Part shown: piece after piece, positions 13,517-17,358 of the stretch | How the letters are laid out: every line of letters begins with the position of its first letter | How positions within the stretch are numbered: position 1 is the first letter of the stretch | NCBI GenBank assembly: GCA_014360755.1 | Contig: JACIWX010000001.1 | Span: 496,001-560,000, forward strand | Source of the DNA: Chloroflexota bacterium | GTDB taxonomy: Bacteria; Chloroflexota; Anaerolineae; UBA2200 | Length of the DNA: 64,000 nt | Direction: 5' to 3' | The notes under the pieces: generated by a model | Database searches by the model: none | What the model saw: only the letters and a program-made list of their open reading frames with translations | What the model was told of the DNA's origin: nothing | Position numbers and translations under genes: made by a program

Positions 13517-13555
13517 AGATATGAGGTGTTGATAGGTGAAAGGAGTCAGGGGCAA

Positions 13556-14620
13556 ATGGTGGAAGATAGTGGTAAGGCAAGAGCTCTAGAGATCGCTGTA
13601 TCTCAACTGAAAAAGCGGTTCGGCGAGGGCTCGATTATGAAACTGGGCGACTCCTCTCAGTACAATGTGCAGACAATCTCTACAGGATCGCTGGCTCTGG
13701 ATGCCGCATTAGGCATTGGTGGCGTACCGCGTGGGCGCATTACCGAGATCTTTGGTCCCGAGTCCTCGGGGAAAACCACCTTAGCACAACACATTATTGC
13801 CGAAGCGCAGCGCGCAGGCGGCGTGGCTGCTTTCATAGATGTGGAACATGCCCTGGATCCAACTTACGCCGCCAAGTGCGGCGTAGATGTGGATAACCTC
13901 TACATCTCCCAGCCGGATACCGGAGAACAGGCACTGGAGATCGCGGAGGCATTGGTTCGGAGTGGAGCAGTGGATGTCATTGTCATTGACTCCGTGGCTG
14001 CGCTGGTGCCCCGGGCAGAGATCGAAGGGGAGATGGGCGATCAGCATATTGGATTGCAGGCACGGCTCATGTCCCAGGCGCTGCGTAAACTTGTGGGCGC
14101 CATCAAACGCTCGAATACGGCGGTCATCTTCACCAACCAATTGCGGCAAAAGATCGGGGTCCTATTTGGGAACCCAGAGACGACCACGGGCGGTAACGCA
14201 CTCAAATTTTATGCTGCAGTGCGGTTGGATATACGCCGTATGGAAGCGATTAAACAGGGCGGTGAAGTCATTGGCAACCGTACCAAAGTGCGTGTCACGA
14301 AAAACAAACTGGCTCCGCCGTTCAAGAGCGCTGAGTTCGACATCATTTACAACGAGGGCATCTCCAAGAGCGGCGATGTACTGGATATGGGTGTGGAAGT
14401 AGGCATCATCGAAAAGAGGGGGGCGTACTACACATACGGCGAGACCCGATTGGGGCAAGGGCGAGAAAATGCCAAGGCATTCCTGAAGGAGAACCCCGCG
14501 CTTCTCGAGGAGATCGCTCAGAAAATCCGTCAAAACGTGACTTCTTTGGCGGAAAAGTCATTTGGAACGATCGAATCAGTCACAGAGGAGCCGGAGGAAC
14601 CCTACACGCTTGAGGAGTAA
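13556..14620 (+). CDS. recA: Recombinase RecA
   Basis: Strand-exchange and SOS co-protease ATPase. The 354-residue product has the leader [20 protein letters not shown], Walker [40 protein letters not shown] (Walker B), loop L2 around [17 protein letters not shown] (catalytic and DNA-binding), and [13 protein letters not shown]. The acidic C-terminus [11 protein letters not shown] is normal. ATG 13556 follows AGGAG by ten bases; an upstream GTG at 13526 lies only 9 bp after the -10 and is unlikely. recX follows after a 479-bp non-coding stretch. Confidence 0.98.
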
Positions 14621-14737
14621 TGACATAGAACAAATTCTTGCATTGCGGCGCCCGGTTCGCTAAAGGGCGAGGCAGCGAGAGGTTGTTCTCGACCACAGCA
14701 CTGAAGTAGGCATTTCTCTATTCTCTAAGCGGGAAAT

Positions 14738-14983
14738 TTGGTTCCCCTTTGATGGGGATGAATTTGGCGGAAGAAGGATTGGGATGACTTTACCCAAGAG
14801 GCGTACAGCAGAACGGCAGTCGCATAAAAAGGCAATCGGTTGCGTTTACCAGGAGCACACGGCCCATTGGAGCTATCCAGCACTAGGGCTGAACGCATCA
14901 AGGATTCGCACGATGCTTGCAAGGTCACTCCAATCCGTACTAGAAACCTGATTAACCGCCGTTCAGGTTACAAGGGGAACCAA
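14738..14983 (+). ncRNA. Candidate structured RNA between recA and recX
   Basis: No convincing reading frame exists between 14621 and 15099. A perfect 12-bp pairing (TTGGTTCCCCTT at 14738-14749 with AAGGGGAACCAA at 14972-14983) encloses a second 13-position stem (14776-14788 with 14924-14936, 12 of 13 paired counting one G-U). Inside are a hairpin AACCTGA/TCAGGTT (14945-14951/14963-14969) and GCATC/GATGC (around 14895-14915). Small hairpins at 14648-14669 and 14676-14691 precede it, a 9-bp stem (14991-15017) follows, and a terminator-like hairpin closes the region. I could not match it to tmRNA, RNase P RNA, SRP RNA or a known riboswitch by eye; 6S-like RNA cannot be excluded. Strand is assumed from the flanking genes and terminator. 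Confidence 0.4.
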
Positions 14984-15036
14984 GTATACTCCCTGGCTTG
15001 AGCCTGGAAAGCCAGGGAACCGATATGCCGAGTTAG

Positions 15037-15067
15037 AAAGCTGTGGTCACCAGACCGCAGCTTTTGT
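15037..15067 (+). terminator. Intrinsic terminator upstream of recX
   Basis: AAGCTGTGGTC (15038-15048) and GACCGCAGCTT (15053-15063) form an 11-bp stem with one G-U pair and an ACCA loop, followed by TTGTGTT. The T tract is short. It would end transcription of recA or of the candidate RNA. Confidence 0.6.
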
Positions 15068-15099
15068 GTTATAGATATTATAGATAATTGGTATCGCCT

Positions 15100-15744
15100 A
15101 TGCTCCAGAAAATCACGGCGCTGAAATTACAAAAGAAGAACCGCCAACGGGTCAACGTTTACCTGGATGGCGAGTACGCATTTGGGCTACACGCTCTTCT
15201 TGCTGCTCCTCTGAAAGTGGGGCAATCCTTGTCCCCAGAAGAAATAGAGCAGCTTCGGGAACGCGATGCCTTGGAGGTCGCGTATGAAAGAGCGTTGGAT
15301 TTTCTGAGCTACCGACCACGCAGTCGTGCTGAAGTGGAGGCATATCTCCAGCGCCACCGTGTGCCCGATCCGACCATCCAGGGCGTCATAGAGCGATTGA
15401 GCACGGCAGGATTGCTGGATGATGAAGCCTTCGCCCGCTATTGGGTAGAAAATCGTGAGGCTTTCCGGCCACGCGGCCAACGCTTATTGCGCTTTGAACT
15501 GCGCCGTAAGGGTGTGCCGGATGTGGTAGTGGAAGAGGCGATTGAGGCAGTTGACGAAGCAGAGAGCGCCTATCGGGCTGCACGTGATCGTGCACGGCAG
15601 CTCAGTCACCTGGATTACCAGATTTTCTACCGCCGCTTAAGCGGATTTTTGCAGCGGCGGGGTTTTGATTACGAGGTGGTCAAAGAGACGGTGAAACGTC
15701 TGTGGCTGGAGTTGCGAGGCTCCGCTACGGAGGAATCCCTTTGA
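15100..15744 (+). CDS. recX: RecA regulator RecX
   Basis: RecX binds RecA filaments and limits their activity. The 214-residue product has a short beta-rich N-terminus (QRVNVYLDGEYAFGLH) and then the three-helix RecX repeats. Recognisable blocks are ALDFLSYRPRSRAEVEAYL, LSTAGLLDDEAFARYWVENR and RGQRLLRFELRRKGV. Start ATG 15100 has no clear Shine-Dalgarno; an in-frame TTG at 15088 is an alternative. A TATTAT hexamer at 15076-15081 may be a -10 for a short-leader transcript, since the gene is separated from recA by a terminator. Confidence 0.9.
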   Translation: MLQKITALKLQKKNRQRVNVYLDGEYAFGLHALLAAPLKVGQSLSPEEIEQLRERDALEVAYERALDFLSYRPRSRAEVEAYLQRHRVPDPTIQGVIERLSTAGLLDDEAFARYWVENREAFRPRGQRLLRFELRRKGVPDVVVEEAIEAVDEAESAYRAARDRARQLSHLDYQIFYRRLSGFLQRRGFDYEVVKETVKRLWLELRGSATEESL

Positions 15745-15825: not shown

Positions 15826-17358
15826 ATGAACAACGCACTAGTGAATATCGGAATAGGCCTGGCGGTAGGCCTGCTGGGGTTTATACTCGGATACCTAGTC
15901 CGGCAATATACCGCCCGAACTAAGGTTCACGCAATCCGTGAAGAAGCAGAAAGCCTGTTAGCGCAAGCCAAAACCCGTCTTCAAGAAGCCGAACTGGAAG
16001 CAAAAGCAATGGCATTGAAGATGAGGGACGAAGTAGAGCGGGAAGCAAAGAGGCGACGCGCGGAACTGGAGAGGCAAGAACGCCGATTACAACAGCGCAG
16101 GGTAAGCTTTGAGCGCAGGGTAGATGCTTTAGAGGAACGCTCACGCAAGCTAGAGGCGCGTGAGAAACAACTGGAGCAGCAACGAAATGAACTAGAGCAG
16201 TTACGGCGCAAGGAACTGGAAGAACTACAACGCATCTCTAATTTGAGCCTAGAAGAAGCCAAGGAACTGCTTTTGCAGAGAGTTGCCAATGAGGCGCGGC
16301 AAGACATAGCTCGCGTGATCCGAGAAGCGGAAGAACAAGCCCGCGAAGAGGCGGAGCGCAAAGCACGGGAAATTATTACCCTGGCTATCCAACGCGTAGC
16401 TTCCGATCAGGTCGCGGAAACAACTGTATCCACTGTGGCACTGCCCAGCGATGAGATGAAGGGCCGTATTATCGGCCGTGGGGGACGTAATATCCGCACC
16501 ATTGAGAACATCACTGGCGTGGATCTGCTTATTGACGATACCCCAGAAGCGGTTACGCTGTCTAGTTTTGACCCGGTGCGGCGTGAAATCGCCCGGGTTG
16601 CGCTGAACAAACTCATTCTAGACGGGCGCATCCACCCTGCGCGTATTGAAAAGGTAGTGAAAAAGGCTCAACAAGAAGTCGAAGCCATTATCGAGGAAGA
16701 AGGCGAGCGTGCAGTTTATGAAGTTGGCGTCCCCGGCCTGCACCCAGAGCTCATCAAATTGCTCGGACAGCTCAAGTATCGCACGAGTTACGGCCAGAAC
16801 GTGCTGATGCATTCTATCGAAACAGCACATCTGGCTGGTATCATGGCAGCTGAATTGGGAGCAAATGTGGCTCTGGCTAAGGAAGGCGGGCTGCTGCATG
16901 ACATAGGCAAGGCAGTGAGCCATGAGACGGAAGGCTCTCATGCCCGCATTGGGGCTGAAATCGCGCAACGCTACGGCCGGCCGCCAGAAGTGGTGAACGC
17001 AATCGCCGCCCATCACTGCGAGGAGGAATTCACTACCCTGGAAGCTGTTCTGGTCCAGGCTGCGGATGCCATCTCTGGTGCGCGCCCTGGTGCGCGACGA
17101 GAGACCCTAGAGAGCTACATCAAGCGCGTCGAATCTTTGGAAAAACTAGCTGATTCCTTTGCCGGCGTTGAAAAGTCCTACGCCATACAGGCCGGACGTG
17201 AAATCCGTATCATCGTGAAGCCAGACGAGGTTGATGACCTGGGCATCATCACCCTTTCCAGGGACATTGCCAAGAAAGTCGAGGAAAGTCTGGAGTACCC
17301 GGGGCAGATCAAAGTGACCGTTATCAGAGAGACAAGGGCTGTTGATTACGCCAAATGA
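15826..17358 (+). CDS. rny: Ribonuclease Y
   Basis: Membrane-anchored endoribonuclease that initiates mRNA decay. The 510-residue product has an N-terminal transmembrane helix (about residues 5-25), a long charged coiled coil (about 35-200), a KH domain with [15 protein letters not shown] around 215, and an HD domain with HSIETAHL and [10 protein letters not shown] around 330-360. GGAAGG five bases before ATG 15826 sets the start, although the frame is open to 15766. spoVS follows; ricT, whose Bacillus product works with RNase Y, lies convergently 1.2 kb downstream. Confidence 0.96.

Follow-up and report, generated by a model that had tools for sequence, protein, structure and literature searches.

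A folded RNA resembling an on/off switch for recX in the recA-recX gap of an Anaerolineae genome

Introduction

RecX limits RecA filaments and thereby sets the strength of recombination and mutation after damage, and control of recX is known to act via promoters, co-transcription and simple read-through. Does the RNA between recA and recX also take part in this control? We address this question at a locus of a Chloroflexota bacterium of the class Anaerolineae, in a 64,000-nt stretch of DNA (hereafter the window) in which recA (open reading frame at 13526-14620, + strand) is followed on the same strand by recX (15100-15744; Pfam domains RecX_HTH1/2/3), the putative controlled gene. From the end of recA at 14620 to the start of recX at 15100, the gap amounts to 479 nt. 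A preliminary description, made from the letters of this DNA, had pointed to nested long-range pairing in the gap and offered three options for it: a stand-alone RNA, a long regulatory leader of recX or a 3′ UTR of recA.

Here we describe a folded RNA of about 440 nt, predicted in the recA-recX gap, that has the appearance of an on/off switch for recX. We favour, with a probability of about 0.68, the reading that this region is a cis-acting leader of recX working by transcription attenuation. If a whole bacterial class has retained an RNA switch specific to recX, recombination would also be controlled at the level of RNA.

Results

None of the small open reading frames in the gap has a Pfam match, which marks the gap as non-coding and leads us to reject a coding remnant as its origin. 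The minimum free energy of positions 14600-15110 is -186.9 kcal/mol (z = -4.75, with none of 100 shuffled sequences as good), and the transcript ahead of the last hairpin arm (14621-15052) does better still against its shuffles, with a z of -6.94. The leader opens with a 5′ hairpin at 14627-14689 (14627-14641 paired with 14675-14689), which is present in the minimum-energy folds of both segments. Further 3′ is helix P2, the perfect 12-bp pairing over 246 nt that had been claimed and that we place at 14738-14749 and 14972-14983. It encloses an inner stem between 14776-14791 and 14921-14936, previously given as 12 of 13 pairs and found here with 13 of 16 positions paired. A 10-bp hairpin, TCCCTGGCTT/AAGCCAGGGA, follows at 14990-15018 (14990-14999 with 15009-15018), and then the family-conserved terminator-like hairpin with its short U-rich tail (TTTTGTGTT, 15037-15069; 15037-15048 with 15053-15064), which stops about 30 nt 5′ of recX. 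All of these are inverted repeats on the + strand, and every helix of the preliminary description is present, including a 9-bp long-range stem. The U-rich tail in the window is weak and short, and a strict terminator scan omits the hairpin.

The 9-bp stem is formed by element A (GACCACAGC, 14691-14699, + strand), the putative antiterminator strand, which is perfectly complementary to element B (GCTGTGGTC, 15040-15048, + strand) and with it closes a domain of 358 nt. The earlier reader had missed that the nine bases of B are used twice, in the A:B stem and in the terminator-like hairpin, whose 5′ arm B forms by pairing with element C (GACCGCAGC, 15053-15061, + strand), a 3′ arm that resembles A. 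Because A:B and B:C share strand B, the two pairings are mutually exclusive. The computed probability of A:B is about 1.00 in a transcript ending before C and falls to 0.05 once C has been made, and the full-length A:B and B:C states are nearly isoenergetic, at -177.1 and -179.6 kcal/mol, respectively (2.5 kcal/mol apart). Terminator/antiterminator leaders are laid out in this way: a terminator-like hairpin (15037-15069) stands ahead of the recX start codon, and a conserved alternative helix, not detected in some leaders, sequesters one terminator arm. We also considered whether the hairpin arm is a common terminator word of the genome and rejected this, as the window has no excess of AAAGCTGTGGTC.

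The preliminary description had proposed a search for compensatory changes in relatives as one check that could refute it. In an alignment of six genomes of the window's family, the 12-bp helix P2 passes this check, with both-side (compensatory) changes at 5 of its 12 pairs. A:B is kept in the same six genomes (98.1% of cells paired), and P2 and A:B taken jointly have 90.5% of cells paired, versus 32-48% when the partners are slid. The terminator-like hairpin is kept in this alignment as well. C-to-T changes in relatives yield G-U pairs in A:B on the + strand, and it is therefore the + strand RNA that is under selection. For the upstream gene, recA, tblastn finds relatives of 81-94% identity within the order.

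Leaders of the same layout precede recX in many Anaerolineae species. Across the class, recX was detected in 366 of 396 genomes, and some 100 distinct recA-recX gaps (from about 100 species) range from 8 to 998 nt, with a median of about 400. Between families, the sequence likeness of these leaders lies in the hairpin alone; an inter-family profile search (nhmmer) recovered the hairpin and no shared sequence core beyond it, the interior diverging fast. A hairpin could be detected in 83 leaders; its distance from recX has a median of 22 nt, and its 5′ arm contains C[TC]GTG[GA] in 60. We folded each transcript as far as the loop of the hairpin and scored the fraction of the 5′ arm that pairs more than 120 nt upstream, using 57 leaders that represent blastn clusters without detectable mutual sequence similarity. 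Long-range pairing of the 5′ arm reached 0.67, versus 0.37 with the upstream part shuffled (p = 9e-9), and segments 5-50 nt upstream of the arm scored 0.15-0.33, much below the arm itself. The result was the same with a set of 82 leaders. Furthermore, the complementarity of A and B from the same leader exceeds that of cross-species pairs (83 leaders, Wilcoxon p = 6e-6); a convincing A:B is lacking in about a third of these 83. In other Chloroflexota classes, the recA-recX gaps measure -4 to 116 nt and several have a plain terminator near recX. A terminator at this site is therefore probably of old origin, whereas Anaerolineae appear to be distinguished by the long switch domain.

In one family, f28, recX is unlinked from recA, and a nearly invariant promoter, a leader of about 300 nt, the A site and the terminator-like hairpin are all kept. 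Nearly all leaders of this family start at a promoter whose TATAAT box hardly varies and whose sequence is mostly TTAACA-N17-TGTATAAT, located about 290-430 nt upstream of recX. Of all upstream windows, that of the A site (e.g. GCGGCCTTTGCT) pairs by far the best with B (AGCCGAGGCCG), the mean for A being -13.9 kcal/mol versus a median of -6.1 kcal/mol for upstream windows, and the A:B pairs of each species beat permuted pairs, with none of 20,000 permutations as good. These leaders have a conserved core within the family, and the model of its 9-bp core helix is mainly a sequence model because it contains no both-side changes. In the 61 genomes of the family, all strong matches to the leader model are at recX, on which ground we rejected a regulon-wide riboswitch.

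The f28 promoters of recX are near letter-identical (GTTAACAAATCTTAAAATTCATGTATAAT) in about 50 species (L286-L325, L196-L251). Their -35 region includes a conserved GTTAAC palindrome, a possible binding site for a regulator such as LexA.

It is in f28 that control of translation is a serious alternative, since only a few nucleotides separate the hairpin from the ATG, its tail often running straight into it, and the U tract is poor. More generally, the hairpin adjoins the start codon, so that blocking of the ribosome is also possible, and the shortness of the U tracts, seen in the window and most of all in f28, leaves room for an effect of the hairpin on translation in place of transcription. 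The hairpin would then hide the ribosome-binding region of recX, the A:B pairing would free it, and termination would play little part. We consider this unlikely, because outside f28 canonical T runs (TTTTTG) follow many of the hairpins and because simple terminators occupy this position in other Chloroflexota classes.

Next we examined whether the region follows recX or recA. At recA loci without recX there is no long gap, the next gene usually starting shortly after recA, and at recX genes distant from recA a terminator-like hairpin as a rule still immediately precedes recX. Occurrence independent of the neighbouring gene, which would mark a stand-alone sRNA, was not found among these loci: the long region was seen at recX and is missing where recA lacks it as a neighbour. 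Four loci (L067, L076, L096 and L113) have a recX with its own promoter, as judged by eye. In the window, no convincing promoter was found within the recA-recX gap, and the leader RNA is therefore probably part of the recA-recX transcript. Of the three options offered at the outset, that of a recX leader gains from the hairpin at recA-distant recX and from the missing region after recX-less recA, while a stand-alone RNA and a recA 3′ UTR lose ground because the long region tracks recX.

A stand-alone sRNA, or an RNA derived from the recA 3′ UTR, could also act in trans, with the hairpin as its terminator and with recX downstream by chance or through weak read-through. Such an RNA would be consistent with the stable overall fold and with the f28 RNA having its own strong promoter and terminator-like hairpin, but we judge it quite improbable: besides the association with recX just described, with leader and hairpin both found at recA-distant recX, the strong matches to the f28 model occur at recX only, the leader end abuts the recX start codon, and an sRNA would have no need of overlapping A:B and B:C pairings. 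The alternative pairings, their conservation and their link to recX all have computational support.

Two arrangements at these loci were seen in addition. In many Anaerolineae, a small N_BRCA1_IG (Ig-like) protein is encoded closely 3′ of recA at the site of recX (L061, L064, L095, L054 and L083). At L067, L076 and L096, recA is followed by a strong terminator, a TATAAT-type promoter, the leader and then recX, and the L096 gap also has repeated GAATGGGCGAGGACAAGCCGTCGCCCC units.

A match to a known RNA family would have turned the region into an annotation. We found none in Rfam, where no family, T-box included, scored above the gathering threshold or at relaxed thresholds. Nor did the profile search find an aptamer core conserved over distant carriers, as would be expected of a riboswitch, the families sharing the hairpin alone. 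Misplaced 6S RNA and RNase P RNA were rejected because the genome has these elsewhere (G000:C1:305410-305588 and G000:C2:355-788, respectively), and a mobile element or an origin in a phage or plasmid was rejected because the region is single-copy in the genome and blastn against phages and plasmids gave no match.

Discussion

Under the attenuation reading, the polymerase, in this genome probably arriving from recA, would transcribe the leader, and the RNA would fold into the long domain closed by A:B. With A holding B, the B:C terminator-like hairpin would be blocked and the polymerase would read on into recX; if A:B is unformed or opened, B:C would pair and transcription would end about 30 nt short of the recX ATG. 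The leader would thus most likely set the amount of transcription that reaches recX, and we infer that the switch is in use in the cell. Given the divergence of the leaders, a shared ligand-binding core is unlikely, and the speed of folding versus that of the polymerase, or a protein factor, would fit better as the trigger. A further, speculative idea, which we hold to be rather unlikely, is that of a class-wide RNA sensor coupling the RecA inhibitor recX to the state of transcription or to DNA damage. Under this hypothesis, the A-to-B domain must fold or bind a factor before the polymerase reaches C, and a slowed polymerase or a damage signal would decide whether RecA is restrained.

In E. 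coli, about 10% of recX transcription is reported to result from read-through past a terminator after recA (PMC3542578), an intergenic terminator for which PMC3062782 cites Pages et al. 2003. This low level, and the fast evolution of the leader interior, would suit a fixed read-through terminator with a structured, unregulated spacer, in which recX is a constant low fraction of recA and the RNA only protects or spaces the message, but we find this very doubtful since conserved specific pairing to the terminator arm is unexpected of a passive spacer. The attenuator-like leader shares with the E. coli locus a terminator immediately 5′ of recX and, probably, expression of recX by read-through from recA. 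It differs in that the Anaerolineae leader, at 200-900 nt, is folded, provides an alternative pairing for the terminator arm and also occurs with its own promoter at recA-unlinked recX. To our knowledge, the E. coli gap is short and has no antiterminator domain.

In M. tuberculosis, recX is likewise controlled by more than the recA promoter (PMC3062782). Unlike the Anaerolineae leader, the additional input there is a recX promoter located within recA, the two coding regions overlap and an RNA leader is lacking. In T-box elements, riboswitch expression platforms and amino-acid attenuators, too, a terminator-like and an antiterminator helix that exclude each other lie immediately 5′ of a gene. 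The recX leader differs from all of these in having neither an Rfam match nor a conserved inter-family sensor core, in an antiterminator strand located about 350 nt upstream, and in its controlled gene, a recombination regulator.

A search of the literature collection used here for a recX attenuator or a structured RNA in Anaerolineae found nothing, and the recX leaders appear to be previously undescribed. The best reading of the element is a new attenuator-type leader, the regulation itself being predicted. It would also offer a useful case in which the switching strands are kept while the intervening domain has become barely recognisable, a combination that sequence-based RNA searches would miss.

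Two features around recX in the window may be added. The recX ATG has no clear Shine-Dalgarno sequence upstream (15069-15100). On the 3′ side of recX lie the RNase Y gene (15826-17358; RNase_Y_N, KH and HD domains) and then spoVS, so that an RNA-degrading enzyme is encoded immediately 3′ of the putative recX RNA switch.
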